Shown here piece by piece: positions 10,988-63,505 of a stretch of DNA of 64,000 bases; position 1 is the stretch's first letter; each line of letters opens with the position of its first letter. The translations under genes and the position numbers were made by a program. The DNA comes from Candidatus Atribacteria bacterium (GTDB lineage Bacteria; Atribacterota; JS1; SB-45; 34-128): NCBI GenBank assembly GCA_003451675.1, contig DMCY01000068.1, positions 1 through 64,000 of the forward strand, given 5' to 3'. The notes under the pieces are model-generated. The model did not search any database. It saw only the letters and a list, made by a program, of their open reading frames with translations, and was not told where the DNA came from.

Positions 10988-12937
10988 TTAATAATCCAGA
11001 TCTTTCACTTCTAAGCCGTGTTTGTATATAAAATCTTTTCTGGGCTCAACTTTGTTCCCCATTAGAATTGTAAACATATCTTCTGCTTCTATATTGTCTT
11101 GCAGCTCTATTCTCTTTAAAACTCTGTTTTCCGGGTTCATAGTGGTCTCCCATAACTGCTCAGGATTCATTTCACCTAAACCTTTATATCTCTGAATTCG
11201 GGGATTACCTTCTATCTCTTTTAACTTATCGCTTAACTCTTGGTCACTAAACAAGTAGTGGCTCTTTTTATTATATTCAACTTTGTAAAGAGGAGGCTGG
11301 GCAATATAAATATTCCCTCTTTCGATTAATGGTTTCATATAACGGAAGAAAAAGGTTAAAAGCAGGGTTTTTATATGGGCTCCGTCGACATCTGCATCTG
11401 TCATTATAATAATTTTATAATATCTTAATTTTTCAATTTCTAAATCTTCCCCGATGTTTATACCTAAAGCGGTAACCATGGATCTTATTTCGTTATTGTC
11501 TAATATTTTGTGCAAACGTGCTTTTTCTACGTTCAGAATCTTGCCCCTTAAAGGCAGGATAGCCTGAAACCTCCTGTCTCTCCCTTGTTTAGCTGAACCT
11601 CCGGCGGAATCACCCTCTACAATAAATATTTCCCTAAAATATGGGTCTTTTTCCGAACAATCTGCTAACTTTCCAGGAAGAGTACCTAATCCTAAAAGTC
11701 CGTTCTTTTGGCGTATTAAATTTCGAGCCTTTCTAGCGGCTTCCCTGGCGCTTAAGGCAGAAACAGCTTTAGCCAGTATCTTCTTGCTTACACTTGGATT
11801 CTCATTAAGAAAATTGTTTAAGCCTTCTCCGACAACATAAGATACTACCGGTCTTACCTCATTGTTCCCCAGCTTGGTCTTGGTCTGGCCTTCGAACTGA
11901 GGGTTTAGCAGTTTTACGCTAATTACAGCGGTTAATCCCTCTCTTACGTCATTGCCCGACAGATTGTTTTCGCCTTCTTTTAAAGATAATTTTTTACCAT
12001 TAGACGATATATTGTTGCGGGTATAATCATTTATTGCTCTGGTTATAGAGGCTTTAAATGCAGCTAAATGAGTTCCGCCTTCTTCGGTATTTATATTATT
12101 GGCAAAAGAAAGGATATTTTCTAAATAGCCATCATTATATTGCAAAGCGGCTTCCACTTCTATGTCTTCCTTCTTCCCTTTAAAAAAGATGGGTTTTGAA
12201 AATAAAACGTTTTTATTCTTGTTTAAATAGTTGACAAATTCCCTTATTCCCCCATTGTATTTATAAGAAATTTCTTTGTTCTCTTCCCTTTCATCTTTTA
12301 AATTAATCTTAACCCCGGCATTTAAAAAAGCGATTTCTCTTAGCCGGTGAGCAATGTTATCAAAATTAAAGGTGGTGTCTTCAAAAATAGTCGGATCGGG
12401 CTTGAAGGTAATTTTGGTCCCGGTGCGGGAAGACCTCCCTATTTTTTTTAAGTCGGATACGGCATTCCCTCTTTCAAACCTCTGAAAAAATATTTTTTTA
12501 TCTCGGGTTACTTCTACTTCCAGCCATTCCGAAAGAGCATTTACAACTGAAATACCTACTCCATGCAGTCCGCCGGTGACCCGGTATCCGCTTCCTCCAA
12601 ACTTACCGCCGGCATGAAGTTTGGTCAACACTATGGTTACCGCCGGCAACTTGGTTTCTTTGTGAATGTCAACCGGGATTCCACGCCCGTCATCGGTTAC
12701 GGTAACACTATTATCGGGGTGGATAACCACTTCTATCTTTTTACAATAGCCGGCCATCGCTTCATCAATGCTGTTGTCTACCACCTCATCTAAAAGGTGA
12801 TGAAGTCCCCTACTTGAAGTACTCCCGATATACATACTGGGTCTTTTTCTGACTGCCTCTAACCCCTCTAAGACCTGTATCTGTTTGGCAGTGTATTGAT
12901 TGTCTATATTCTTAGTTTTCTTTTTTCCTTTTGGCAA
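10988..12937 (-). CDS. gyrB: DNA gyrase subunit B
   Basis: GyrB supplies ATP hydrolysis for negative supercoiling by gyrase. The 649-residue protein has the GHKL ATPase site ([36 protein letters not shown]), the transducer domain and the TOPRIM domain ([33 protein letters not shown]). It ends with the expected C-terminal [17 protein letters not shown] region. Length is typical. It starts at an ATG preceded by AGGAGTTTATACT. A strong promoter lies upstream at 13043-13071, so gyrB can be expressed independently of recF. Confidence 0.97.
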
Positions 12938-48979: not shown

Positions 48980-49328
48980 TTTTGTAAAAATTCATTTAAA
49001 ATAATAGTTTTTTTGGTGATCTTTAACATCGATTTCTTAATTCTTTAGTTGCGGCCTTTTTCTGCCTCATAGTTACTAACATTCCTTTTTGCCTCCTCAT
49101 ATATTTAAAGAGATAATTTCTTATTTTAAATATAAAGGAGATTCAGTTGTAATTAAAATAATTTGTAGTACTTTTTTAGTGAGGCAATTCGATGCATTTA
49201 CATATAATGATAAAAAGATTATAATACTGAGATACTGAAAATATTAATAAAATAGTTAAAGGGTAATCTATTGGTTTGTTTTTACCATATCATAAATTTT
49301 ATTTATGATGGGAAAACGGGGGGTTAGT
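48980..49328. other. Spacer before the sensor kinase gene
   Basis: AT-rich, no gene supported. No clear sigma-54 or sigma-70 promoter could be fixed. GGGGGG at 49316-49321 lies before the kinase start. Confidence 0.4.
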
Positions 49329-51113
49329 ATGGTTTTATCACAACATTTAATAATGTCAAAATCAAATACTGTTTTAATGGAAGAAAAAGCAAGTAAATTG
49401 TTTGGTGCAGCGAAAATGTTGTCATCTTATCTCAAAGAGGATTTTAACGATCTTCTTTCTTTTAATGAGATACACGACTTAAGTCGAAAAGAGAAAATAT
49501 TAGTACTTAATAGAAGATTGAGAGATTTTACTAAATTAGTAGCCCAGAGTTTCCCCTTTATTGGGGTTGGTTACTATTCTAAAGAATTAGATGCCATTAT
49601 AACTTATGAGCCAAGTAAAAATAGTAATAAAGTAGGAAAATCGGTACCCGATAATCACTTAGGTAGGCAAGTAATGGCCAAGGGGAAGAAAATGGTGGTA
49701 ACAGGAGATATGGTGCGGGGAAATTGTATGGCTTGTTTTGTACCTCTTATAAGAAAAAATAAAGTAATAGGTTATGTTTGGGCAACTGAACCTATAAAAG
49801 AAATCTATAAACAAATTAGAGAGACAAAACGAAAAAAATCAGTATTTACAGATATGAAAATCGTGATAGATACTTTACCCTTAGTATTTTTATCTAATAA
49901 AATATTTTCCGATTTAGCTATTTCTAAACATGAAGAAATAGTAGATATTTTAAAAAACGTCTCATTTTCTGTAAATGATAAAATAAATAGAGATGTTTGT
50001 CAATTTATTAAGCAAATTATATCTTTTTTAGAAATGGCAAAGGATTATGGTGAAAATATTTTGGAAAATATAAGTGCTGCTCTTATTATTGTTGATCCAA
50101 AAGGAAAAGTTTTTTTCTTTAATGAATCTGCTCAATGGTTATTTAAAGAGAAAGATAAAGAAAAAATATTAGGGAGGCCTTACTATCACTCTCTTTTGAG
50201 GTTTAAAGAACTTGGATTAGACGAGATTATTAAAGAGGTTTTCGATACTGGAAAGACTTACCTTGCTCAAGAAATAAATTACCCTGGGCAAAAAGATAAA
50301 ATTATAAATTTGGGAGTATGTTTAATAAAAGATATTAATAAACAAAAAATAGGGGCAATGATTATTGTTGAAGATATTAGTGCTGAAAAAGCATTAGAAC
50401 AAAAAAAGAAGTGGGAGAAAAAATTGGCTACCTTTGGTGAGTTAGCTACTAATTTAGTTCACGAGATTGGTAATCCTTTAACTGCTATAAAGGCACTTAG
50501 TCAACTGCTTCCGGAAAGGATTAATGATAAAAAGTTTGTTGATCGTTTTAGTAGAGAGATTGAAAAAGAAGTTGAAAGGGTAGATAAAATATTTAAGAAT
50601 CTTTTTTGTTTGATCCGCTCTTCTAGTCTTCGTTTTGAAAGTACCAATATTAATGCGATACTTAATGAGGTTTTATTTTCTGTGGAGGGGATGGTTAAAA
50701 AACAACAAGTTAATATAGTTAGAAAATTTAGTAAGAACCTGCCAGAATTAATAGTTGATAAAAGCCAGATTAAACAAGTTTTTCTAAATTTAATTCTTAA
50801 TGCTTTCCATGCTATGCCTGAAGGCGGAGTTTTAGAAATTTTTACTATCTATGAACGAAAAAAAAGTTGTTTGAAAATTAAATTTAAAGATAATGGTTGT
50901 GGAATTGCACATGATTTTTTAGATAAAGTTTTTGAACCATTTTATACTACTAGAGAGGATGGAACAGGCATTGGTCTTGCTATCTCATGTAATATAATTG
51001 AACAACATGGGGGATATATCAATGTAGAAAGCGAAGAGGGAAAAAGCTCTATCTTTACCATTATTTTGCCAGTCAATTCAATTATGGGGGAAGGGGATTG
51101 TTCTGAAAAATAA
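49329..51113 (+). CDS. Soluble sensor histidine kinase
   Basis: This 594-residue kinase has no membrane segment, so it senses an internal signal. Residues about 1-230 form an unclassified sensor with GNCMACFVPLIRKNKVIG, which has two cysteines and could bind a metal or redox cofactor. A PAS domain follows (IIVDPKGKVFFFNESAQWLF), then HisKA with phospho-histidine in NLVHEIGNPLTA (H378), and HATPase (LNAFHAMPEGG, DNGCGI, GTGIGLAIS). ATG 49329 is chosen for its GGGGGG site. Its stop overlaps the next gene; together they form a two-component pair. Confidence 0.92.
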   Translation: MVLSQHLIMSKSNTVLMEEKASKLFGAAKMLSSYLKEDFNDLLSFNEIHDLSRKEKILVLNRRLRDFTKLVAQSFPFIGVGYYSKELDAIITYEPSKNSNKVGKSVPDNHLGRQVMAKGKKMVVTGDMVRGNCMACFVPLIRKNKVIGYVWATEPIKEIYKQIRETKRKKSVFTDMKIVIDTLPLVFLSNKIFSDLAISKHEEIVDILKNVSFSVNDKINRDVCQFIKQIISFLEMAKDYGENILENISAALIIVDPKGKVFFFNESAQWLFKEKDKEKILGRPYYHSLLRFKELGLDEIIKEVFDTGKTYLAQEINYPGQKDKIINLGVCLIKDINKQKIGAMIIVEDISAEKALEQKKKWEKKLATFGELATNLVHEIGNPLTAIKALSQLLPERINDKKFVDRFSREIEKEVERVDKIFKNLFCLIRSSSLRFESTNINAILNEVLFSVEGMVKKQQVNIVRKFSKNLPELIVDKSQIKQVFLNLILNAFHAMPEGGVLEIFTIYERKKSCLKIKFKDNGCGIAHDFLDKVFEPFYTTREDGTGIGLAISCNIIEQHGGYINVESEEGKSSIFTIILPVNSIMGEGDCSEK

Positions 51114-52494
51114 AATATTAATAATAGATGACGAACCGAATATAAGATGGACTTTAACTGAGTTACTTAAGAATTCTTATGATGTTTTAAGTTCAGATGG
51201 CTCCGAAAAAATTATGGATGTAATTAATCGGGAAGCACCTGATTTAATTTTTTTAGATTTAAAACTAAAAAGAAAGAACGGTATGGATATTCTTAGTTTG
51301 ATTAAAAAGGAAAAAATAGATGCAGCTGTGATTATTATAACTGCTTATGGTAGTATTGAAACGGCTGTTGAGGCACTAAAATTAGGTGCCTATGATTATA
51401 TTACTAAACCTTTTGATCTTGCTAGAGTTAAAGTAACAACTCAAAAAGCTTTAGAGAAGACACATTTATCTAAGGAAGTAGTTCGTTTACAGTCTCAGCT
51501 AGAGGAAAAACATAGTATTGAAGGCATTATTGGTAAGAGCCCTAAAATACAGAAAATATTTACTGCTATTAAAAAATTGGCCGAAGTTGATTCAACCGTA
51601 TTATTACACGGTGAAACTGGGACGGGAAAAGGAATTACAGCCTATGCTATTCATTTCAAGAGCTTTCGAAGAAAGAAGCCCTTTATAATTGTCAATTGTG
51701 CTGCTCTCCCTGAATCTCTACTGGAAAGCGAGTTATTCGGGTATGAACGCGGGGCTTTTACTGGAGCTATAACGAAAAAACCAGGAAAATTTATGCTTGC
51801 CAACAAGGGAACTTTATTCTTAGATGAAATAGAATCTTTAAATTTAAATGCTCAAGCAAAACTGCTTAGGGCTATAGAGAATAAACAGATTGATCTTTTA
51901 GGTGGGAATAAAAGTATTGAAGTGGATGTTAGAATTATTGCTGCCACTAAAGATAATTTAAAGGAAAGAGTAAAGCAAGGTACTTTTAGGGAGGACTTGT
52001 TTTATAGATTAAATGTTGTACAAATTTGTTTGCCTCCTTTACGTGAGCGGAAAGAGGATATACCGTTATTAGCGAATCATTTTTTAAAGATATTTAATAA
52101 AAAATATTCTCAAGTAAGTCCAAAATCTATTTCTAAAGAATTTTTATCATTATTAATGGAACATGCTTGGCCGGGAAATGTTAGAGAATTGTCAAATGTC
52201 ATAGAAAAAGCTGTAATAATGAGTGAAGGAAGCGTACTAAAACCGGAAAATTTACCTTACAATATACAGTATACTCAGCATAAAAAAATTTTTCTATCTG
52301 ATGAATTTTTTAAAGATCGAAAAATATCTTTTAAAGACGCTAAAATTGCTGCAATAAAAGATTATGAAATTGAAACTATAACTAAGATATTAAAAGAAAC
52401 AAATTGGAATAAGAGCAAAGCAGCAGAGAGGTTAGGAATTTCTAGGAGATCGCTTCTTTATAAGGTAGAGAAATACGAGATTAAAAAGAGATAA
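51103..52494 (+). CDS. NtrC-family sigma-54 response regulator
   Basis: This activates sigma-54 RNA polymerase after phosphorylation. Its receiver begins KNKILIIDDEPNIRW with phosphoacceptor D52 in LIFLDLKL. The frame has no ATG before 51214, which would cut the receiver; CTG at 51103 after AAGGGG is the best start (463 residues). The AAA+ part has GETGTGKGITAYAIH, the sigma-54 contact GAFTGA (YERGAFTGAITKK) and LNVVQICLPPLRERKEDIP. A Fis-type HTH ends it (AAERLGISRRSLLYKV). It overlaps the kinase gene by 11 bases. A sigma-54 promoter is 152 bases downstream. Confidence 0.93.
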   Translation: MKNKILIIDDEPNIRWTLTELLKNSYDVLSSDGSEKIMDVINREAPDLIFLDLKLKRKNGMDILSLIKKEKIDAAVIIITAYGSIETAVEALKLGAYDYITKPFDLARVKVTTQKALEKTHLSKEVVRLQSQLEEKHSIEGIIGKSPKIQKIFTAIKKLAEVDSTVLLHGETGTGKGITAYAIHFKSFRRKKPFIIVNCAALPESLLESELFGYERGAFTGAITKKPGKFMLANKGTLFLDEIESLNLNAQAKLLRAIENKQIDLLGGNKSIEVDVRIIAATKDNLKERVKQGTFREDLFYRLNVVQICLPPLRERKEDIPLLANHFLKIFNKKYSQVSPKSISKEFLSLLMEHAWPGNVRELSNVIEKAVIMSEGSVLKPENLPYNIQYTQHKKIFLSDEFFKDRKISFKDAKIAAIKDYEIETITKILKETNWNKSKAAERLGISRRSLLYKVEKYEIKKR

Positions 52495-52576
52495 TTGTAT
52501 ACATTATTTCACAGTATGCGAAATATATTGCGCAATAATTATTAATTTTTAATAGCGAATAATTTGAAAAACAGTT

Positions 52577-52628
52577 ACCGAAAAAGGCTATATTTATTAT
52601 ATGATATGGCCTTTTTCGGTATTTTTAT
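52577..52628 (+). terminator. Terminator of the kinase-NtrC operon
   Basis: ACCGAAAAAGGC pairs perfectly with GCCTTTTTCGGT around a 20-base loop, and ATTTTTATT follows. Confidence 0.85.
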
Positions 52629-52646
52629 TAGTAACAAAAAATATAC

Positions 52647-52662
52647 TTGGCATAAATATTGC
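52647..52662 (+). promoter_or_regulatory. Sigma-54 (-24/-12) promoter
   Basis: TTGGCATAAATATTGC has the invariant GG and GC with exact ten-base spacing (consensus TTGGCACG-N4-TTGC). It lies between the NtrC-type gene and the receiver gene, with transcription predicted near 52674. The next downstream genes are the receiver and the catabolic cluster. Confidence 0.88.
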
Positions 52663-52735
52663 TTATCTTATTAAGTACAGAAAGATAAAAGTGTTATTTG
52701 TGCTAATTTTAATTCTAAGGAGTTAATAATAAAAG

Positions 52736-53098
52736 TTGAAATATAAAATATTAGTAGTTGATGATGAAGAAAATATTAGGTGGGTACTGAAAGAATCTTT
52801 AGGGGATATTTACAATATTCAAATTGCGAAAAACGGGGAAGACGCACTAGTTAAAATTAATAAAGAAATCTTTGATTTAGTTTTATTAGATCTTAAACTT
52901 CCCAAAATAAGTGGATTAGAGATTTTAAGAAAGATCAAGAAGGAAAAAAGGAATAGTATAGTTGTAATTCTTACTGCTTATGGTAATAAGGAAAATATTA
53001 AGATGGCAAAAGAATTAGGTGTTTATTGTTATTTGACCAAACCCTTTGATCTTTTAGAATTAAAGTCAATTATAAAAAAAGCTTTAGACAAGAAATGA
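52736..53098 (+). CDS. Single-domain response regulator
   Basis: This 120-residue stand-alone receiver has the acidic pocket in VVDDEENIRW, phosphoacceptor D52 in LVLLDLKLP, the threonine in ILTAYGN and the lysine in YLTKPFDLL. It resembles the receiver of the neighbouring NtrC-type protein (shared NIRW, TAYG, TKPFDL) and so likely takes phosphate from the same kinase or acts as a phosphate sink. It has no output domain. TTG 52736 after AAGGAG is the start. It is first behind the sigma-54 promoter. Confidence 0.92.
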   Translation: MKYKILVVDDEENIRWVLKESLGDIYNIQIAKNGEDALVKINKEIFDLVLLDLKLPKISGLEILRKIKKEKRNSIVVILTAYGNKENIKMAKELGVYCYLTKPFDLLELKSIIKKALDKK

Positions 53099-53188
53099 AG
53101 TCCTAAAATATTAGATGATCGATATTCACATATTAATATAATTTTAAAGAACTTTTAACTAAAATAGTTATTGTATAGGAGGATATAA

Positions 53189-54349
53189 ATGCGAGATGTT
53201 TCTATCATAGGAGCAGCGGAAACTAATTTTGGAATATTAGAAGGGAAAACTATTCGAGATATTATGGCAGAGGCAGGAACAAAAGCTATAGAGGATTCTG
53301 GCCTGAATTCCAAAGATATTCAAGCCTTTTATTTAGGTAATTTTGCCGGAAGTAATTTTGTAGGTCAAAATCATCTAGCTCCTTATACTGCTTCTGCATT
53401 AGGATTAAACCATATTCCGTGCACTAGACTAGAAGATGCATGTGCTTCTGGTGGTGTAGCATTAAGAGAAGGGGTTATGGCGGTTGCATCAGGAATGTAC
53501 GATTTTGTGTTGGTTGGCGGAGTAGAAAAGATGACCTCTGTTACTACGGAACGGTGTACCGAAATACTATCAGGAGCAGCAGATGAGGAATTTGAAGCGA
53601 GAGTAGGAATTACTTTTCCTGGTCTTTTTGCCCTAATGGCAAGGAGACATATGTTTGAATATGGAACAACAAAGAAGCAACTTTCTATGGTAGCAGTTAA
53701 AAATCACAAAAATGGTGCTAAAAATCCCTATGCCCAGATGAGGAAGGAGATAACTTTAGAAAAAGCTTTAAATTCTGTAGTAATTGCAGACCCCTTAAAT
53801 CTTTATGATTGTTCTTTGGTTTCAGATGGGGCAGCTGCAATTGTATTATGTCCTGCAGATTATGCTCATGAATATTCAAATATACCTATAGATGTAATTG
53901 GTTTTGGGCAATCATCTGATGTGATTTCTGTAAGCGAAAGGCCAAGTATTACTGTTTTACAATCTACAGTAAAAGCAAGTATGGAAGCGTATAAAATGGC
54001 GAATTTAAAGCCTCAAGATATAGATGTATGCGAAGTGCATGACTGTTTTACAATTTCAGAGATTATTGCCACAGAAGATTTAGGGTTTGTGGAGAAAGGA
54101 AAGGGAGGAAAAGCAGTTGAGGAAGGAATGACAGAAATAGACGGGGTTATTCCTATAAATCCTAGCGGTGGACTGAAAGCCAAAGGACATCCTGTAGGAG
54201 CAACTGGAGCAAGCCAAGCTGTAGAAACAGTTTTTCAACTTAGAGGAGTGGCTGGTGAAAGGCAAGTTAAAAATGCTGAAATTGGACTTATGCATAATTT
54301 AGGTGGGTCAGGTTCTACTTGCGTAGTTCATATATTAAAAAGGAGGTAG
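53189..54349 (+). CDS. Thiolase-family acyl-CoA C-acyltransferase
   Basis: Thiolases cleave or form beta-ketoacyl-CoA. The 386-residue protein is an SCP-x-like thiolase: nucleophile cysteine in LEDACASGGVALREG (C85), HDCF (VCEVHDCFTISEI), GGLKAKGHPVGATG and a late HNLGGSGSTCVVHIL. Members of this group often pair with a DUF35 zinc-ribbon/OB protein, and one follows here (six bases gap). Likely the last CoA-cleaving step of a degradation route. RBS AGGAGG, ATG 53189. Confidence 0.92.
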   Translation: MRDVSIIGAAETNFGILEGKTIRDIMAEAGTKAIEDSGLNSKDIQAFYLGNFAGSNFVGQNHLAPYTASALGLNHIPCTRLEDACASGGVALREGVMAVASGMYDFVLVGGVEKMTSVTTERCTEILSGAADEEFEARVGITFPGLFALMARRHMFEYGTTKKQLSMVAVKNHKNGAKNPYAQMRKEITLEKALNSVVIADPLNLYDCSLVSDGAAAIVLCPADYAHEYSNIPIDVIGFGQSSDVISVSERPSITVLQSTVKASMEAYKMANLKPQDIDVCEVHDCFTISEIIATEDLGFVEKGKGGKAVEEGMTEIDGVIPINPSGGLKAKGHPVGATGASQAVETVFQLRGVAGERQVKNAEIGLMHNLGGSGSTCVVHILKRR

Positions 54350-54354
54350 TATCA

Positions 54355-54696
54355 GTGGAAGAAAATAGAATATTTGGTAATGTATGTTGTAATTGCGGAG
54401 AATTGTTTTTATATAATGTTAAATATTGTTCAGTTTGTGGATTTAAAAATTTTAAAGAGAAATCTTTTATAGGAGATGGCGAAATTTATTCTTATACTAA
54501 AATATATTATACTGCAGAACCTTATAAAAAAGATGCACCCTATATAATTGCTATAGTAAAGTTAAATGAAGGTTTAAAGGTAATGGGAAGGTTATTGGGT
54601 AAGATTAAAGAAAAGCAACTTGGTATTGGTGTGCCTGTTAAATTTGTAGCAAAAGACAAGGAAGGGTTTAAATTTAAACTAGCTGAAGTTAGATAG
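54355..54696 (+). CDS. DUF35 zinc-ribbon/OB-fold acyl-CoA partner protein
   Basis: This 113-residue protein has an N-terminal rubredoxin-like zinc ribbon (VCCNCGELFL and YCSVCGFKNF, CxxC twice) and a C-terminal OB-fold (DGEIYSYTKIYYTAEPYK, YIIAIVKLNEG). DUF35 proteins bind acyl-CoA and partner with thiolases of the SCP-x type. GTG at 54355, preceded by AGGAGG, is the start; the upstream in-frame ATG overlaps thiolase and lacks a site. It follows the thiolase by five bases and should form a complex with it. Confidence 0.9.
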   Translation: MEENRIFGNVCCNCGELFLYNVKYCSVCGFKNFKEKSFIGDGEIYSYTKIYYTAEPYKKDAPYIIAIVKLNEGLKVMGRLLGKIKEKQLGIGVPVKFVAKDKEGFKFKLAEVR

Positions 54697-54744
54697 TAGA
54701 AAATAACTTTAAAAGGATAACAAAAAGGAGAGATATTAAAAAAA

Positions 54745-55761
54745 GTGAATAGTTTAGAATTAGGAAATGGCGAGTTGTTCTCTAAAACAACTCCTGAAGA
54801 GGCAAGGAAATGGTTTAAAGAAAAGAAGAGTAGGGCTCTAAAGAGCAAAGTTATGGGTATAAGTGAGGCAATAAAGAAATATGTACATAACGGAGATTAT
54901 TTAAGTACGGGAGGGTTTGGCCATATTAGAATTCCTATGGCTGCTCTTTATGAAATAGTAAAACAAGAGATAAATAATCTCTCTGTCTCAGCCCATACTG
55001 CAATTCATGATGTGGATATTTTATTAGCCGGGAATTGTGTTAAGAATGTTGATGTATCTTACTTTACAGGCTATGAGTTACGGCCTTTGTACTCTAAGTT
55101 AGGTAGCAGATTAGTTAAAGAAGGAGCCATTAACGTTGTTGATTGGAGTAATGCAGCTTTAGCATGGAGATTTAAAGCTGCATCAATGGGCATATCCTTT
55201 ATGCCCACTAAAACTATGTTAGGGACAGATACATTTAAGGTAAGTGGTGCAAAATTAGTAGAATGCCCTTTTACAGGAGAAAAGTATTGTGCGGTTCCTG
55301 CATTGTTTCCAGATGTCGCAATAATCCATGTACATCGTTGTGATATGTATGGAAATTCTCAAATTGATGGGATTACTGTTTCAGATTACGATTTAGCTCG
55401 AGCTGCAAAACGATTAATAATAAGCACTGAAAAATTAATAGATACTGAAGAAATTAGAAATAATCCAGAGAGAACTATTATCCCATATTTTTTAGTAGAT
55501 GCAGTAGTCGAAGCACCGTATGGCTCTCATCCCGGAGAGATGCCTTATTTGTATTATTTTGATGAAGAACATATAGCTGAGTACCTTAAGGCTACACAAG
55601 ACGAAACAGGAGAAAAATTAAAAACATATTTAAAAAAATACGTTTTTGGAGTTAATAATTTTACAGAATATTTTGAACTGATAGGCGGGGAAAATAAAAT
55701 GAAATTATTAGAAGAGATTGAAAAACAAGAAATAAAACCATCATATTTATGGGAGAAATAA
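54745..55761 (+). CDS. CoA-transferase, alpha subunit (glutaconate/IpdA-like)
   Basis: This 338-residue protein matches family I CoA-transferase alpha subunits: GFGHIRIPMAALYEIV, a central HVHRCDMYGNSQIDG and LVDAVVEAPYGSHPGEMPYLY. Such two-subunit enzymes move CoA between acids, but close relatives (IpdAB) hydrolyse ring intermediates of steroid breakdown, so the exact reaction is open. The start (GTG 54745) follows AAGGAG with a rather long 14-base spacer. It overlaps the first bases of an alternative beta start but the real beta ATG is 3 bases after its stop. Confidence 0.88.
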   Translation: MNSLELGNGELFSKTTPEEARKWFKEKKSRALKSKVMGISEAIKKYVHNGDYLSTGGFGHIRIPMAALYEIVKQEINNLSVSAHTAIHDVDILLAGNCVKNVDVSYFTGYELRPLYSKLGSRLVKEGAINVVDWSNAALAWRFKAASMGISFMPTKTMLGTDTFKVSGAKLVECPFTGEKYCAVPALFPDVAIIHVHRCDMYGNSQIDGITVSDYDLARAAKRLIISTEKLIDTEEIRNNPERTIIPYFLVDAVVEAPYGSHPGEMPYLYYFDEEHIAEYLKATQDETGEKLKTYLKKYVFGVNNFTEYFELIGGENKMKLLEEIEKQEIKPSYLWEK

Positions 55762-55763
55762 AA

Positions 55764-56549
55764 ATGATAGAAGAATATAATTTAATAGAATTAATGGTAA
55801 TTATGGCATCAAGACAACTAAAAGATAATAAGACAATTTTTGTAGGAACTGGACTTCCAATGGCTGCTGCTATATTGGCTCAAAAGTTATATACTCCAAA
55901 TTTGGTTTTAATTTTTGAAGCTGGAAGTATAGGGCCTATTATTCCTCGAATCCCTATATCTGTAGGTGAATGTTTAACATTTCATAAAGCTGTTTCAGCA
56001 AGTAGCATGTCCGAAGTAATGGAAATGGCGGGCCGAGGAATGGTTGATTATGCTTTCTTGGGAGGAGCTCAAATAGATCCTTTTGGCAATTTAAATTCAA
56101 CGGTTATAGGAAATTACTATAGTCCTAAAGTAAGATTCCCTGGGAGCGGAGGTGCAAATGATCTAGGTTCTTTATGTTGGCAAACATTGTTAATTATGAA
56201 TCATTCAAAAAGAAGATTTGTAGAAAAATGTGATTTTATAACTACTCCTGGGTATTTAGATGGACCTGGTGCGCGGGAAAGAGAAGGGCTGCCAAAAGAA
56301 AGCGGTCCTTACAGAGTAATAACTGATTTGGCAATATTGGACTTTGAAGATAGAAGTAAAAGGATGAGATTGTTGGCATTATATCCTGGGGTTACGGTCG
56401 AAAAGGTTAAAGAAAATACTGGTTTTGAGCTTTTGTTAGCACCGGAAATATTAAATCTTAAGCCACCTGCTCATGAAGAATTGAAGGTTTTAAGAGAAGA
56501 AGTTGACCCGTTAGGAATGCTAACAATGAAGGTTAGTAAAGCAAAATAA
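55764..56549 (+). CDS. CoA-transferase, beta subunit (glutaconate/IpdB-like)
   Basis: This 261-residue beta subunit carries FVGTGLPMAAAILAQKLY and the catalytic-glutamate region LIFEAGSIGPIIPR near residue 50, where classic CoA-transferases have SENG or similar. FLGGAQIDPFGNLNST and GSGGANDLGSL follow. ATG 55764 after GGGAG is chosen because it starts two bases after the alpha stop. The EAG variant occurs in IpdB-like proteins and unassigned CoA-transferases. Substrate unknown; context suggests a mid- or late-pathway acid. Confidence 0.87.
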   Translation: MIEEYNLIELMVIMASRQLKDNKTIFVGTGLPMAAAILAQKLYTPNLVLIFEAGSIGPIIPRIPISVGECLTFHKAVSASSMSEVMEMAGRGMVDYAFLGGAQIDPFGNLNSTVIGNYYSPKVRFPGSGGANDLGSLCWQTLLIMNHSKRRFVEKCDFITTPGYLDGPGAREREGLPKESGPYRVITDLAILDFEDRSKRMRLLALYPGVTVEKVKENTGFELLLAPEILNLKPPAHEELKVLREEVDPLGMLTMKVSKAK

Positions 56550-56866
56550 TTTTTTGTTTCAAGTTATACAAAGAAATAAATTTTCTACGGTGCAACATTG
56601 TATTTTAGGTTGAAAGCAAATAACACAGAAGGGGGTGAAAATGAAGAACAAACAAAGCAATCGGTTTAAGGATAATAATTAAACCAAGTATTTATCATTT
56701 TAATCCTAAGTTAATGTAATGTCTGTAAACAGTATTAAAAAAATTAAAAAAGTAGATAGGCTTTTAGAGAATTTTAAAACAAAACGGAGGCGTTATAAAA
56801 TCCTTATAAGATAAAGGTTTTAGAGTTTTTTGAAAGGCACTATTACAAACCTTAAGGAGGTTAAAA
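56550..56866. promoter_or_regulatory. Spacer with possible leader peptide before the cyclase gene
   Basis: No full gene is seen. A 13-residue frame, MKNKQSNRFKDNN, runs from ATG 56641 behind a very strong AAGGGGGTG site and could be a leader peptide. No obvious attenuator hairpin or sigma-54 site follows. A further GGAGG near 56786 has no good frame. The spacer could hold a secondary promoter for the cyclase-symporter-aldolase genes. Confidence 0.35.
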
Positions 56867-57658
56867 ATGAGTGAATTTAAATTAATTGATTTAAGCGTGC
56901 CAATCGAACATGATTCTTCATCTGAACCATGGCCAGCGAAGTTTAGTTACTTAGATCATAGAACAGGTGCTAATGAGATGGGAAGTAAACTTGGAATAGC
57001 ACAAGAAGATTTTGTTTTTTCCAATGGCTTGGGTTGGTCATATGAAGAGGTTACTATGATTACACATTGTGGGACCCATTTAGATGCGCCATGGCATTTT
57101 CATCCCATGGCAGAAGGAAAACTTGCGAAAACAATTGACGAAGTCCCTCTGGAATGGTGTTATTCAAATGGTGTTGTTTTGGATTTACGGCATAAGAAAC
57201 CAAGAGAAGAAATTTCTGTTGAAGATATAAAAATAGCTTTAGAAAAAATTAATTATAAACTTAAACCTTTAGATATTGTTCTTATTATGACTGGATGTGA
57301 TAAGAAATTAGGAACTCCAGAATACTTTGAGCAACCTGGAATGGGAAGAGAATCTACTTTGTGGATAGTTGAACAAGGAGTAAAAGTTATAGGTGTGGAT
57401 ATGTACGGTTATGACAGGGCGTTTAAAGATATGGGTGAAGATTACAAGAAAACTGGAGACGGTAAAAAAATTTGGCCTGCACATTTTGCGGGAATAGAAA
57501 AAGAATATTGTCATATTGAAAAATTAGCTAATCTTGATAAAATTACGAAACCTTTTGGTTTTAAAATAGCAATTTTTCCGATAAAGCTGGTTAAAGCGAG
57601 TGCGGCTTGGATTAGACCAGTAGCTATTATTGAAAACCAAGGAAGAGAGGAGAGATAA
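56867..57658 (+). CDS. Cyclase/kynurenine formamidase-like metallohydrolase
   Basis: This 263-residue protein belongs to the putative cyclase family (PF04199), which includes kynurenine formamidase, isatin hydrolase and other metal-dependent hydrolases. It starts FKLIDLSVPIEHDSSSEPW and has the signature HCGTHLDAPWHFHPM near residue 67 (HxGTHxDxPxHF). VIGVDMYGYDRAF is near 175, which may shape substrate choice. It probably opens a ring or hydrolyses an amide. RBS AAGGAGG, two bases upstream of the symporter start. Confidence 0.88.
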   Translation: MSEFKLIDLSVPIEHDSSSEPWPAKFSYLDHRTGANEMGSKLGIAQEDFVFSNGLGWSYEEVTMITHCGTHLDAPWHFHPMAEGKLAKTIDEVPLEWCYSNGVVLDLRHKKPREEISVEDIKIALEKINYKLKPLDIVLIMTGCDKKLGTPEYFEQPGMGRESTLWIVEQGVKVIGVDMYGYDRAFKDMGEDYKKTGDGKKIWPAHFAGIEKEYCHIEKLANLDKITKPFGFKIAIFPIKLVKASAAWIRPVAIIENQGREER

Positions 57659-57660
57659 TT

Positions 57661-59631
57661 ATGTCTGGTATGGGTATTTTTGCGATTTTCTTTATAATCT
57701 TTGGGATTATAATGCTCAGAGTAGGGCTTGTTACAAGAAAATGGATTGAGAGAAGTAGTGATTTTATGCTCGCAGGTCGTGAAGTAAATTTAATAGTAAA
57801 TGTTCTTGGTGTTGCTTCCATAGGATATGCTGGAACTACATTGGCTTTATCTCCAGCTTTTTCCCTTATGGGAGGACTTGTTAAAGGCGTATTTATGTTG
57901 GGTGTTTGTTATGCACTCGTGGGGATAGTATCTTATGGGTTGCTTGTAGCGCCAATTGCAAGAAGAAGTGGGGCTCATACACTTCCTGAATGGATGGAAA
58001 TAAGATACGATAATAAGGTCCGTACAGTTATTGCCTTAACGTCAATTGTAGCTATGATAGGTATTACTGCTAATAATATCGTATCTATGGCTTATATACT
58101 CGCTGGATTTACTGGGTGGAACTTACTTTTAATGATTACAGTTTGTTTTATTGTACTTTTATCTTTTACATATCTTGGAGGATTATGGGCAATTACTTTG
58201 ACAGATTTTCTTCAAGGAGTAATTTGTATTTTTGCAATTCCTTTGTTAGTTATTGTTTTGCTAATGAAATTTGGAGGTTGGGATTTCGTTTCAGCTGGTT
58301 GGCCTGGCGGAAATCCTCTATATACTGGAATTGCAGGAACCACATTTCCGTGGTTTTCTTTAAGATATCCTAGTGTGTTTGTTGCTTTATTTTTATATGG
58401 AATGGCTTTAGTATGGGGTTCAAACCATTACTGGCTCAGAGCAAGTTCAGTAAGAACCGATAAAGTAGCAAGAGATTCTTTTCTTTGGGCAGCCCTAATT
58501 CTTTTTATAGCAAATGGAATATTATATCCAATACTTGGTTCATATTTAGGTTCTGCTTTTCCAACTACATTTGCTCCTATAGGGAAAGTTCCCCCTGCAG
58601 CAAGTTTTGGAATATTTTTGAAAAGTATTAATCCTGCTGCTGCAGCTTATTTACTTTTAACCACAGTAGCAGCGTCTATTTCAACAGCAACAGCAACTCA
58701 TATTGCTGGTACTTCTATGATATTTCGTGATGTTTACCAAAGAGTATTTAGACCAAAGGCCAAGCCAGAAGAATTGGTAGTACCATCTCGTGTTATATCT
58801 TTAATTTTTGGTATTGTATGCTTGGCATTATGTTTCTTCCCAGGTGGTCCTGTATATCTCTTTGCTTTTGGTTGTGCATGGCTTGCTCCAAGTGCAGTAA
58901 TTGTTATATTGGGAATGTACTGGAAGAAAATTACTACTGCAGGGGCATTTGTAGGAGGATTGGGTGGAATTATATTCTTGAGTGTTTGGACAATTCTTGA
59001 TCTTACTAAGCTTTACCCGATGACTGCAAAATTTGGCCATATGGTACTTCCTGGAGTTGTAATCACCTTTTTATTAACGGTTATTGTTAGTCTCTTTACT
59101 AAGTCTAAATATTTTGGAAAATCCGAAGGGACAGAAAAAATAAAGTTAACTGATACAGATATCAAAGTTTTAGGCTACATAAGAAAAGGTTATACTCAAA
59201 TGGCTGAAATTACTGATATGTTAGATGCTGATTCTTCAGTAAGTAGCAAGATTATAGAGAAATTGGAAAGCGCAGATTATCTAAGAAGATTAGCGGGTGG
59301 TGGACTTGGGTTTTACACATTTGAGTTAACAGAAAAGGGTAAAACAATACTTCCTCCACTTTCTTCTAAAGAGGAAAAACTTATTAAGGATAACTTAGAT
59401 ATCTTAAGACTCAAAGTATTGAAATATATTTCTACTAATCCAAATTTATTAGCGAGTAAATTAGCGAAAATAACCGGCGTAAACCAAATGGGAAATTCAG
59501 TAATAATTAGTTCATTAATTAGAGGCAATTTCCTTAAAGAAAGCGGAATATGGAGAAGGATAGTGGAAATAACCACTAAAGGAAAAGAAGCGCTTGAAAA
59601 TAATAAGGCGTTATTAGAAGGAGAGAATTAA
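57661..59631 (+). CDS. Sodium:solute symporter fused to two winged-helix domains
   Basis: The 656-residue protein starts with a symporter of the sodium:solute (SSS) family of about thirteen helices: ASIGYAGTTLALSPAFSLMG, RSGAHTLPEWMEIRYDN, WGSNHYWLRASSVRT and STATATHIAGTSMIFRD. After the last helix (about 475) come two MarR-like winged helices: residues 496-565 (LTDTDIKVLGYIRKG, FELTEKGKTIL) and 577-650 (KVLKYISTNPNLLASKLAKI, VEITTKGKEAL). The DNA-binding-like part should face the cytoplasm. It imports the pathway substrate, presumably with regulatory function. The frame is continuous, so it is no annotation error. Confidence 0.9.
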   Translation: MSGMGIFAIFFIIFGIIMLRVGLVTRKWIERSSDFMLAGREVNLIVNVLGVASIGYAGTTLALSPAFSLMGGLVKGVFMLGVCYALVGIVSYGLLVAPIARRSGAHTLPEWMEIRYDNKVRTVIALTSIVAMIGITANNIVSMAYILAGFTGWNLLLMITVCFIVLLSFTYLGGLWAITLTDFLQGVICIFAIPLLVIVLLMKFGGWDFVSAGWPGGNPLYTGIAGTTFPWFSLRYPSVFVALFLYGMALVWGSNHYWLRASSVRTDKVARDSFLWAALILFIANGILYPILGSYLGSAFPTTFAPIGKVPPAASFGIFLKSINPAAAAYLLLTTVAASISTATATHIAGTSMIFRDVYQRVFRPKAKPEELVVPSRVISLIFGIVCLALCFFPGGPVYLFAFGCAWLAPSAVIVILGMYWKKITTAGAFVGGLGGIIFLSVWTILDLTKLYPMTAKFGHMVLPGVVITFLLTVIVSLFTKSKYFGKSEGTEKIKLTDTDIKVLGYIRKGYTQMAEITDMLDADSSVSSKIIEKLESADYLRRLAGGGLGFYTFELTEKGKTILPPLSSKEEKLIKDNLDILRLKVLKYISTNPNLLASKLAKITGVNQMGNSVIISSLIRGNFLKESGIWRRIVEITTKGKEALENNKALLEGEN

Positions 59632-59634
59632 AAA

Positions 59635-60903
59635 ATGGAAAAAATCAATATAGAAACTTTAGAAGGTTGTAATTTGATTCCTCCGTATTTTACAGAGGAA
59701 AAATGGGTTCCTAGTCTCAATTTTACTGAAGAAATTCGCTCTCAAATGGTTATCCCAAAAAATATTATTATTCATGATGTAACTCTTAGAGACGGTGAGC
59801 AAACAGCAGGAATTGTTTTTACTGAAGACGAGAAAGTATTTATCGCCAAGGAATTTGATAGAATTGGGATCCCATTAATAGAAGTGGGGACTCCCGCAGT
59901 TTCAGATAGTGATAAGAGGGCTTTTAAAAGACTTTCTGAAATGAACCTTAAGGCTAAAACTATTGCTCTTTCAAGAATAAAAAGGAAAGATGTGGAATTA
60001 GCGATTGAAAATAAAGCTGGAGGCATCTTTTTAGAAACGAGTATAAATCCATATTTTCTTAAGCACGTAGTAGGTTGGGATGTTAGTGAATTAATTAAAA
60101 GAGCAGTAGATTGCACAAAATTTGCAAAGGATGCTGGATTATTTGTCGAGTTTTGTGGGTGGGAAACCTTCAGAGTTAGTAATTTAGATGTAATTAAAAG
60201 AATTTATTCTGAAATTGTAGATAAAGTAGAAGTTGACCAAATAGGAATTTCTGATACATTTGGTCAAGCGCACCCGCTAGCCATACAGTTTTTAGTAAGA
60301 AAGATGAAAGAATGGATTCCTGATGTCCCTCTATCTTTTCATATCCACAATGATTTTGGTTTAGCGACTGGCTCAGCTTTGATGGCTGCAACTTCAGGAG
60401 CTGAGGCAGTAGAATGTGCTTTTAATGGTCTTGGAGAAAGAGCAGGAAATCTTGCCACTGAAGAAATAGTTGCTTCGTTTGAATTGCTTATGGGTATGAA
60501 TACCGGGGTAAATTTAAAAGAAATATATAGAATTTCTAAAGTGGTGGAAGAGATTTCTAAATTAAAAATTGCAAGAACAAAGCCTATTGTTGGAGATGCA
60601 GTTTTTGATTGTGAATCTGGGATTGTTGTAGATGCTAATATTAAACTTGAAGAAAAATTAGGGTTAAAAGATAGCTTTTTCCCATATTCACCTTCAGTCT
60701 TTAATAGAGAATCTAAATTTGTAGGCGGAAAAAAGAGTGGCAGAGCTTTTGTAAGAAATATTCTTCAAAAAAAAGGAATTAGTGCTACAGAAGAACAGAT
60801 AATAAAAATTCTAGAGAGAGTTAAAGAGACAGGCATAATTCTTAAGAATGTTCTTACTGATCAAGAGATTGACATGATTATAAGAGAAGAGCTAAACAGA
60901 TAG
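59635..60903 (+). CDS. DRE-TIM metallolyase (HMGL-like aldolase/synthase)
   Basis: This 422-residue protein is an HMG-CoA lyase/isopropylmalate synthase-type TIM barrel. It has the DRE motif HDVTLRDGEQTAGI near residue 42, EVGTPAVSDSD, FHIHNDFGLATGSALMAA near 237 and GLGERAGNLATEEI near 266; the HxH and N/D residues bind the metal. There is no C-terminal LeuA allosteric domain. An N-terminal extension of about 40 residues precedes the barrel. It may cleave or condense an acyl-CoA or 2-oxo acid in the pathway. It follows the symporter by three bases. Confidence 0.9.
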   Translation: MEKINIETLEGCNLIPPYFTEEKWVPSLNFTEEIRSQMVIPKNIIIHDVTLRDGEQTAGIVFTEDEKVFIAKEFDRIGIPLIEVGTPAVSDSDKRAFKRLSEMNLKAKTIALSRIKRKDVELAIENKAGGIFLETSINPYFLKHVVGWDVSELIKRAVDCTKFAKDAGLFVEFCGWETFRVSNLDVIKRIYSEIVDKVEVDQIGISDTFGQAHPLAIQFLVRKMKEWIPDVPLSFHIHNDFGLATGSALMAATSGAEAVECAFNGLGERAGNLATEEIVASFELLMGMNTGVNLKEIYRISKVVEEISKLKIARTKPIVGDAVFDCESGIVVDANIKLEEKLGLKDSFFPYSPSVFNRESKFVGGKKSGRAFVRNILQKKGISATEEQIIKILERVKETGIILKNVLTDQEIDMIIREELNR

Positions 60904-60912
60904 AGAAATAAA

Positions 60913-60950
60913 TAAAAGGCTGATTTAATTTTTATTGAATCAGCCTTTTA
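60913..60950 (+). terminator. Terminator of the catabolic cluster
   Basis: A perfect 13-bp stem (TAAAAGGCTGATT with AATCAGCCTTTTA) and a TTTATT tail follow the aldolase gene by ten bases. Confidence 0.9.
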
Positions 60951-61586
60951 TTTATTGTGCCTTAGAGCTGGCAGCTCAATTATATTAACATCTTTTCTGT
61001 ATTGTCGGGGTGAACTAGGCTTTTTTTAAGATATATTGCTAGTCAATATGAAAATGCAAAAAATAATACTAATAATGTATAATGTAAATACACATGGTCC
61101 TAGATCTCTTTGTAAAACTTATTAGCCAAATAAAGTAAAAATATTGTGGGACAGATTTAAATTTGCATATACCTCAAAGAATGAAAGTATGTTGAACATA
61201 ACTGAGATGGAACTAAATGTTATCATGATTAACCGAAAGATAAATAGATAATGTTAATAAAGAGATGCTGGTATGACGACAATATAAGCGCAAAAGTTTT
61301 AACTAATAATTCACTACAGAAGCTGCTATAATAAAATTATACAAGCTCTATCCGATACCGGTCAGTTGACATGATGACCAGTTACTCTACGAATATAATT
61401 TCGGCTATAGCAGATGTTCATCTTTTATTCACGCACTTACTGAATGGCTTAGAAATAGAGCAGGTAATACATCTACAGAGGAAGCATCAATGATATTAGA
61501 ATTGTTTTTGAAATGCAAGATTATATAATACTTTAGGGATTTTGATTAATTAGATGTATCTTATGAAAGGAGGGGAAATAAAGGGT
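60951..61586. other. Gene-poor spacer after the catabolic cluster
   Basis: A 636-base AT-rich spacer with no supported intact gene. A possible decayed coding fragment lies at 61310-61528. No phrase repeats like those of the left arm are seen. Confidence 0.5.
61310..61528 (+). pseudogene. Possible decayed coding fragment
   Basis: One frame reads FTTEAAIIKLYKLYPIPVS, a stop, then LLYEYNFGYSRCSSFIHALT and EWLRNRAGNTSTEEASMILE to a final stop. The composition looks protein-like on both sides of the single in-frame stop. I do not recognise the family; it may be chance. It is listed because the surrounding 600 bases are otherwise empty. Confidence 0.3.
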
Positions 61587-61847
61587 ATGATGAGTATTTT
61601 TGAAGCAATTATGATAGCTTGTTTTGGTGCTGCATGGCCGTTTTCCATTTATAAGTCATATACTTCAAGAAGTAATGAAGGCAAAAGTTTATTTTTTTTA
61701 TTAGTTATATTAATAGGATATTTATCAGGGATACTACATAAATTAATTTATAATTTTGATTCTATCATTTATTTATATATTCTAAATTTTTGTTTGGTAT
61801 TTACTGATACAATTTTATATTTCAGAAACAAAAGAATAAATAGTTAA
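61587..61847 (+). CDS. PQ-loop/SWEET-like small membrane protein
   Basis: This 86-residue protein has three hydrophobic segments: FEAIMIACFGAAWPFSIY, LFFLLVILIGYLSGILHKL and IIYLYILNFCLVFTDTILYF. The WPFSIYKSYTSRSNEGKSL part matches PQ-loop/SemiSWEET-type proteins that move sugars or amino acids. ATG 61587 after GGAGGGG is the likely start; an ATG further upstream overlaps the ribosome binding site. It is convergent with the BshC-like gene and has no partner. Confidence 0.75.
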   Translation: MMSIFEAIMIACFGAAWPFSIYKSYTSRSNEGKSLFFLLVILIGYLSGILHKLIYNFDSIIYLYILNFCLVFTDTILYFRNKRINS

Positions 61848-61852
61848 TTAGA

Positions 61853-63505
61853 CTATAATTTTGATTCCAATAAATTTTTTAAGGTTTTTGCTGAGAAGAA
61901 ACAGTAAGGAAATTCTCTAAAAGTATAAACTTTAGATTGTTTCATCTTTTCTTCCTCTTCTGCTAACTTTTTACTCAGCTCACATTTTAAAGGCCTTACT
62001 TTTTCTCCCATAAAATTATTTATTGCTTTGATCTCTTCAGAAATTTTTTGTTTTTCTGCCGATGTGAGAGCCCCTCTAATTTTTTTAATTAATTCAGTTT
62101 TTTTCTCAGCCAACTCCGCAATTTGATTTTTCTCTTTTTTGGTTAAAGGCAGTTCATTAATATATCTTTCCGGATTAAATCCCAAATCTCTTATTTTATT
62201 CTTTAGGGTAGATATTTTAGCATCAGATGATTCAAAGGAAGATTTGAAATCGAGATACAAAGTGCAGGAGATAACTAAAAAATGAGGAGGCTTAACTTTG
62301 AAAAATTCTTTGATGATTTCATCGGTTACCAGGTCATATTTTGCCCCTCCTAACCCGTGGATAAAAAGGTCAGAAATAAATAGACGATTGTATAAAGTTA
62401 ACAAAAGAGCTTTAGGTCTTATCTTTAATTTTTTTTCTTTGAGGATGGTTTTTAAGGAAAACAAAGATTTCAAACCGTCGTTTTCTATGAGAAATATTTT
62501 GCCATAAGAATTACTATAGAGATAATTTTTTTCTTTCTCTCTTAGAATAAAAATTTTTCCCCTTTGGTCTCCTTCTCTCCAAATCCAGAAGGGAATCTCG
62601 ATAAGATTTTCCTTAATAATTAAATTGGGTGAGGGGTGTGCCCGATTTCTGATTTTAAATAACTTTCTGTATTCATCCAATTTATTATTATAAATTTTAT
62701 AAAAGGTTTCAATGTTTTTAGTAATTTCTAAAAAGAAGGAGAGAAATTCATCACTGCTGCAAATTTGAGAAAAAGGAATTTCCAGGTAAGTTGGTTCAAT
62801 CTCTTTTTCGTAAATGCGGCGAGCTAAACTGAGGAATTCTCCCAGATTAGCTTTTTTATGATTTTGGCTGCAAAGGCGGGAAGAATCTTCTAGACACCGG
62901 GCAAAAATTTTAAAATTATTTAAGATGCCTTTATTTTCTAATTCCAGGGGCTTGAGTCTATGAATGATATCTCGAGTAAATTTATTTATCAGTGCCCCAG
63001 AAGGGTAAGAGTATTCTTCAAAGGGGAGATTTGTAGAAAGAGCAGGGGATAAAAAATTAATCCCTTCCAATCTCAAATTCCCGGTTGAAGAAAGAACGGG
63101 AAGAGAGAAGTTAAGGTCTTTACAGATATCATTATCCAGGATAATATTTAATCCCAAAGACTTATCCAGAAGAGGAGATTTTAAGAGTTCGTTTAAAAAG
63201 ATGTTTTTAATCCATATCCCGGGATGAAAGAATGCCGGTTGATGGCCGGTCTGAATAATGTATTGGGGAGTGGAACAAATTTTTTCTTCAATATTGGGGT
63301 CAAATTTAGAACTAAATTTTAAAGCCCTCTGAATAACTTCTTTTCGGCAATTTTCTCTTACTTCCCTAAAAGGTTGATTAAGAATTGTAAAAGAATACTG
63401 GCCGAAAATTTTCTTATTCTCTTCCAAAAGAGAACTAATCTTATCCGCCGAGGAAGAGAAGAAAATCTGCTTATTTTGGGGAGCTTTAATATTTATTATT
63501 TTCAT
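61853..63505 (-). CDS. BshC-like protein (remote bacillithiol synthase homologue)
   Basis: This 550-residue protein is of the length and layout of BshC, which joins cysteine to GlcN-malate in bacillithiol synthesis. The N-terminal part has IIQTGHQPAFFHPGIWIKN where BshC proteins have a TGQQ...GLFGGP motif. A central FILREKEKNYLYSNSYG and a long charged coiled-coil (KKTELIKKIRGALTSAEKQK) near the C-terminus follow. The changed motif means a different substrate is possible. BshA and BshB are not in the window. Assignment is at superfamily level only. Confidence 0.55.
   Translation of the reverse strand: MKIINIKAPQNKQIFFSSSADKISSLLEENKKIFGQYSFTILNQPFREVRENCRKEVIQRALKFSSKFDPNIEEKICSTPQYIIQTGHQPAFFHPGIWIKNIFLNELLKSPLLDKSLGLNIILDNDICKDLNFSLPVLSSTGNLRLEGINFLSPALSTNLPFEEYSYPSGALINKFTRDIIHRLKPLELENKGILNNFKIFARCLEDSSRLCSQNHKKANLGEFLSLARRIYEKEIEPTYLEIPFSQICSSDEFLSFFLEITKNIETFYKIYNNKLDEYRKLFKIRNRAHPSPNLIIKENLIEIPFWIWREGDQRGKIFILREKEKNYLYSNSYGKIFLIENDGLKSLFSLKTILKEKKLKIRPKALLLTLYNRLFISDLFIHGLGGAKYDLVTDEIIKEFFKVKPPHFLVISCTLYLDFKSSFESSDAKISTLKNKIRDLGFNPERYINELPLTKKEKNQIAELAEKKTELIKKIRGALTSAEKQKISEEIKAINNFMGEKVRPLKCELSKKLAEEEEKMKQSKVYTFREFPYCFFSAKTLKNLLESKL

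Follow-up and report, generated by a model that had tools for sequence, protein, structure and literature searches.

The window analysed here is a stretch of 64,000 nucleotides from a Candidatus Atribacteria bacterium (contig DMCY01000068.1 of assembly GCA_003451675.1, forward strand), and the gene under study is a single frame on its plus strand, 57661..59631, whose product of 656 residues (P0001) consists of a complete SSS/SLC5 symporter followed by two predicted winged helices. The symporter domain occupies residues ~1-480 (57661..59100, plus strand), winged helix 1 is predicted at residues 498-564 (59152..59352, plus strand) and winged helix 2, with a basic wing, at residues 581-647 (59401..59601, plus strand). 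The Pfam SSF profile (PF00474) scores 111.9 bits on P0001 against a cut-off of 22.8 and is covered over positions 1-406 of 406, and the fold is that of SLC5 proteins, with SLC5 structures at the top of the ranking. The pair S341/T342, which presumably has its role at the Na2 site, is invariant in 42 of 42 aligned rows and would fit transport activity. No kinase or STAC family match was obtained for P0001 at E <= 1, the two winged helices occupying the tail instead. A sequence-only reading of this DNA had described a full SSS transporter joined in one frame to two MarR-like winged helices, and this is confirmed by Pfam and by structure prediction of the tail; the architecture is real, conserved and unusual.

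Both winged helices of the tail have a MarR-like fold in the predicted structure. P0001 does not reach the Pfam cut-offs for MarR domains (MarR_2, 19.9 against 27 bits; MarR, 15.3 against 24.6 bits), and some of its homologues carry listed MarR domains in precomputed annotation. The top Foldseek match of the two-helix module is ScpB (3w6j_E, E 4.1e-04, TM-score only 0.33), which we take to be a protein-binding tandem winged helix, and the structural match to the MarR protein 3k0l_B spans only part of that chain (30-122 of 140 residues). The DxR wing motif is a feature of the MarR family; in the alignment columns it is absent from either wing of the module (0/35 rows), compared with its presence, judged by eye, in 11 of the 12 usable MarR controls. 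This control is crude, as 30 loci gave 15 regular-expression matches from which three wrong frames (L098_211, L109_163 and L113_167) were removed, and since the expression fitted winged helix 1 in 27 of 35 rows and winged helix 2 in none, wing and charge counts were taken from alignment columns. Invariant positions in all 35 rows include D519, L535 and R543 of winged helix 1 and G629 of winged helix 2, and acidic residues are conserved in winged helix 1 at positions 516 (35/35), 519 (35/35), 524 (34/35) and 533 (32/35). The net charge of the module ranges from -7 to +10, being negative in 13 of 35 rows and +4 in the window, and the net charge of helix 1 is below that of the controls (-0.74 against 0.47, control means that contain three wrong frames). 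The module is under purifying selection. In 10 of the 11 pairs compared dS is finite, with many values above 1, and dN/dS, the ratio of nonsynonymous to synonymous divergence, is 0.018-0.275; selection is weaker than on the membrane part in 9 of these 10, and in all 11 pairs dN is higher for the module than for the membrane part.

A homologue search gave 146 proteins and an alignment of 42 rows, query included, that are 36-93% identical to the query. A scan by sequence pattern covered 84,980 species genomes, and the best 80 of 523 relatives were taken from it. In 41 of these loci (L001-L040 and L042), which is a lower bound for the family, the similarity to the query reaches into the module, so that the fusion is indeed found in other genomes, as the sequence-only reading had proposed to check; in the remaining 39 it is confined to the symporter part, with an identity of 24-28% and no match beyond residue 521. 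Module-bearing loci occur in Atribacterota, Thermotogota, Bacillota and Binatota, and L033, labelled Desulfurellaceae, groups with the Binatota rows. Fused and split copies fall into a single clade of 51 rows, supported at 100/99 in a 78-row tree that took in some module columns. In a tree of transmembrane columns only, the SH-like approximate likelihood ratio (SH-aLRT) support of the clade is 99; that tree has 69 rows, 9 of the 27 rows free of the module being omitted, and was made by a quick search with SH-aLRT as its sole support measure. P0053 was counted as fused despite its broken-off tail, L021 is in neither tree, and the long branches of L038 and of the module-free rows are unsure.

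The split copies belong to two lineages, Brevibacillus massiliensis (L023) and Papillibacter cinnamivorans (L030), in which the winged-helix pair is a separate gene directly downstream of its own SSS gene. By eye, the Papillibacter gene has the ribosome-binding site AAGGAGG before its start, and the Brevibacillus gene has GGAGGTGA before a start at 11496 that overlaps the symporter stop. Because the split copies sit at two places in the tree, one fusion and two fissions would be the simplest reading of this history. Papillibacter holds three modules, namely the split copy and two in frames of 665-666 residues, one of which (L126) was checked and is an SSS fusion next to a cyclase; P0047 (501 residues) is, as a protein, a transmembrane-only relative of L023. 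A module profile was run at E <= 1e-8 against genomes drawn from three phyla. It matched 6 of 103 for Thermotogota, the phylum of G003 (from L003), and 1 of 50 for Atribacterota, that of G004 (from L001); two Bacillota draws with a large overlap gave 6 of 398 apiece. The SSS domain precedes the module in 14 of the 14 distinct matched genomes, several of which are those of loci already counted, and the module of G200 is cut by a contig end. No module in a free regulator was seen in these draws at the same threshold, with at most 8 candidates per genome scored in the large ones, and a search for stand-alone modules with that of the window as query gave no match at E <= 0.001. A 35-row profile returned 10 short proteins: P0122, P0123, P0125 and P0127-P0129 start with transmembrane residues of the fusion and are not stand-alone modules, P0130 (a fragment) and P0131 (an ordinary MarR protein) were rejected, and P0124 (171 residues) and P0126 (163 residues) may be either stand-alone modules or cut copies.

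The symporter gene lies 2 base pairs (bp) downstream of a gene for a PF04199 cyclase-family protein (56867..57658) and 3 bp upstream of one for an HMGL-like/isopropylmalate-synthase-like enzyme (59635..60903), and the same unit holds, all on the plus strand, a stand-alone receiver domain (52736..53098), a thiolase with an OB-fold protein of the ChsH2/BbsA-like kind (53189..54696) and subunits A and B of a coenzyme A (CoA) transferase (54745..56549). By tblastn, 30 of the 41 loci that could be tested, the window among them, have the cyclase next to the symporter gene, on its upstream side except in L009; L032 has no upstream sequence. Other partners in some loci are thiolases, CoA transferases or hydrolases, HMGL-like enzymes, FAH proteins and metallo-beta-lactamase-fold proteins. 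This neighbourhood suggests a pathway that hydrolyses a ring or an ester and then cleaves a keto acid in a CoA-dependent reaction. The family is present in flavonoid degraders such as Eubacterium ramulus and Flavonifractor plautii, among others. A protein of ~665-676 residues near the unit (cluster 30) is shared by L025, L026 and L031, that is, two Clostridia, one of them a Fusibacter, and Eubacterium ramulus; its size is presumably that of enoate reductase, and through it the system might be linked with the degradation of flavonoids. Cyclase and BKACE together also raised the uptake of phloroglucinol as a candidate function. As far as the accessible text of its description goes, the anaerobic phloroglucinol cluster contains a DPGC cyclase, a BKACE-family lyase and a thiolase and is conserved in both E. 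ramulus and F. plautii (PMC10470551), and the present system resembles it in combining a thiolase and a BKACE lyase with an enzyme of the "cyclase" family. In E. ramulus, the cyclase next to BKACE (L127), which would be that of the published cluster, lies on another contig and shares only 29-32% identity with the present cyclase (query L029), of which it is no orthologue, and phloroglucinol uptake is therefore unsupported.

Upstream of the unit, also on the plus strand, are genes for a PAS histidine kinase (49305..51113) and for an AtoC-like sigma-54 activator with a receiver domain (51214..52494), the frame of the latter being open further upstream. The spacer that follows, 52495-52735, contains a terminator-like hairpin (52576..52621, plus strand, a 19-pair stem with a T run) and, past it, a candidate sigma-54 -24/-12 promoter, TGGCATAAATATTGC (52648..52662, plus strand), 88 bp before 52736; terminator-like sites in the region are at chance level in number. 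Across the whole window the sigma-54 pattern with at most two mismatches was found 17 times against 15.9 expected by chance, so the promoter call rests on its position and on the sites of relatives. Separate regulators of four unrelated families are found near 33 of the 42 units, namely a sigma-54 activator in 21, TrmB in 7, GntR in 3 and MalT/LuxR in 2; the search covered just these families, with one or two queries for each of them, and "near" extends up to ~5 kb (L018, L030). None of the four types was found near the other 9 loci (L033-L036, L039, L042, L009, L038 and L032, the last on a short contig), other types being unsought, and the regulator type switches at least 5 times on the tree (32 labelled rows). 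With no more than one mismatch allowed, a -24/-12 promoter precedes 19 of 20 tested units linked to sigma-54 activators, 18 of them besides the window, compared with 0 of 8 tested units beside TrmB or GntR. In this test the unit starts were hand-picked, 450 bp upstream were scanned, GG and GC were required and mononucleotide shuffles served as background; it covered 20 of the 21 linked units (L030 omitted), with L008 as the one that has no site, and the comparison units were 8 of the 21 other loci (L002, L003, L005, L011 and L013-L016). A MalT/LuxR-type regulator follows the symporter gene in Halanaerobiaceae (L010:12027-14804 and L017:7369-10236, with Pfam support for L010), and this protein was clustered in these two loci only.

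Some known systems offer a comparison. In CbrA and CrbS the SLC5 domain is followed by STAC and kinase domains, and CbrA is termed a transceptor in which transport and signalling are separable and each part can work apart, according to the accessible parts of the sources (PMC7096432, PMC7918813, PMC13022988). Like them, P0001 fuses a full SLC5 domain to a cytoplasmic part and is linked to the use of a carbon source; unlike them, it places the SLC5 domain before two winged helices, and no kinase domain was found. A survey of transmembrane transcription regulators, in its accessible text, describes most as single-pass and some as having up to 22 transmembrane regions (PMC10269533). P0001 is like ToxR and CadC in carrying a winged helix on a membrane protein, presumably on the cytoplasmic side, and unlike the mostly single-pass regulators of this type in being a complete importer with C-terminal, paired and MarR-like winged helices. 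Compared with MarR regulators (3k0l, 5eri, 2eth), the module shares the winged-helix fold and a weak sequence kinship, but it lies below the Pfam cut-offs, lacks the DxR wing and is fused to a transporter. The word "symporter" is absent from the main text of the survey (PMC10269533), as is "DNA-binding" from that of an SSS review (PMC7918813), and the literature searched for this architecture, in which few subscription papers were covered, yielded no account of winged helices on an SSS protein. By analogy, the family would be an SLC5 transceptor in a different form, with CbrA as its precedent.

Our tentative preference, at somewhat short of an even chance, is that P0001 is a working SSS importer whose tandem winged helices form a cytoplasmic regulatory or docking tail. 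The protein would import a substrate of a CoA-dependent catabolic pathway, probably of the beta-keto-acid type, and the tail would sense a cytosolic state, be it a metabolite or a partner protein, and set the activity or placement of the transporter; alternatively, it would relay the state of the transporter to a protein partner, the promoter of the unit not being its own target. Several observations argue for this: the module is constant while the type of neighbouring regulator differs among loci, every matched module in the genome draws follows an SSS domain, and the split copies sit directly downstream of an SSS gene, as a partner protein would. The sigma-54 promoters of the activator-linked units, the missing DxR, the negative module charge in 13 of 35 rows, the ScpB match, the conserved acidic residues at 516, 519, 524 and 533 and the separability of transport and signalling in CbrA, as given in the accessible text (PMC7096432, PMC7918813), point the same way. 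Several others weigh against it. By sequence the closest solved relatives of the module are MarR regulators (5eri, 2.2e-05), the basic wing 2 is conserved (K/R at position 632 in 32/35 rows, R633 in 34/35), and basic residues in recognition helix 1 are alike in module and MarR controls (1.63 against 1.47). MarR proteins too are commonly acidic at the positions corresponding to 524 and 533, and to our knowledge MarR-type domains nearly always bind DNA. Moreover, the soluble two-winged-helix protein of the split lineages resembles a transcription factor, the nearby regulators leave room for a further one, a ligand site in the module or a contact with the transporter is hypothetical, and BKACE, a beta-keto acid enzyme, is present in 14 of 42 loci, the window not among them.

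Much of this also speaks for a transporter that is itself a transcription factor, with winged helices that bind DNA from the membrane in the ToxR/CadC manner, transport state altering the binding, and that are soluble in the split lineages. This is plausible though rather doubtful, and it gains from the MarR fold and kinship, the conserved basic wing, the separate genes, the 9 loci near which none of the four sought regulator types was found and the counting of membrane regulators with up to 22 transmembrane regions in the accessible survey text (PMC10269533). Direct DNA binding by the tail is possible. The more specific proposal that conformations of the SLC5 transport cycle directly gate DNA binding by the tandem winged helices, as a one-protein transceptor with neither kinase nor receiver that was cut in two lineages into a transporter and a soluble regulator, appears unlikely. 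Against control of the promoter by the tail stand the separate regulators near 33 of 42 units, the sigma-54 promoters that track the activator, the absence of DxR from both wings and the negative charge of part of the modules, and no palindrome common to the window and L001 was detected in the spacer 56550-56866 by inverted repeats and alignment, a weak test with two sequences. The sequence-only reading had proposed that such a protein could report substrate flux directly to a promoter; its architecture with MarR-like winged helices stands and its direct report to the promoter is unsupported as stated, being a possible mechanism that is not favoured, as the context weighs against it as the main control of the unit. 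That the module is only a structural or assembly domain for oligomerisation, stability or membrane placement, with no signalling role, would fit its higher dN and the dispensable covalent link in the split lineages, but is improbable in view of the purifying selection on it, its survival as separate genes and the conservation of the polar residues D519, R543 and R633. An artefact of sequencing, assembly or annotation is practically discounted: some metagenome rows (P0027, P0031) do have duplicated or broken tails resembling assembly errors, but 40 of 42 loci are in separate genomes, one of them a complete chromosome (Geosporobacter, L029), and the homologues, the genome-scan loci and the tree refute this reading. 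The duplicated, deleted or foreign tails on near-identical sequence in the metagenome proteins P0027, P0031, P0043, P0052 and P0054 have the appearance of assembly errors and not of new architectures.

The family bears on the question whether transporters signal through their own conformation; among SLC5 proteins, the papers covered here deal with CbrA and its kinase relatives. The present family has a simpler architecture than CbrA, together with natural split versions and cultured hosts (Sporosarcina, Brevibacillus, Papillibacter), and thus transport and regulation can be tested apart. Additionally, it marks an uptake system linked to PF04199 proteins and CoA-dependent cleavage enzymes.

Some minor features of the region concern its other genes. 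In the region 51061-51214, the sigma-54 activator shows a whole receiver domain for which no start of the ATG, GTG or TTG type exists; the frame continues upstream over the end of the kinase gene, and translation probably begins at an ATT or CTG near 51097-51105, where L001 has the same residues. The lone receiver at 52736-53098 has no output domain, is the first gene past the sigma-54 promoter and clusters with a 204-residue protein of two Thermotogota loci (cluster 23: L002, L003). No Rfam family was above its gathering score in 49000-62000. The 317-bp gap 56550-56866 that precedes the cyclase gene is conserved in parts with L001; it contains a short frame preceded by a ribosome site that looks good by eye, and L001 lacks the ATG of this frame. 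The genes of the unit extend to 60903, and a second promoter may lie within this gap.
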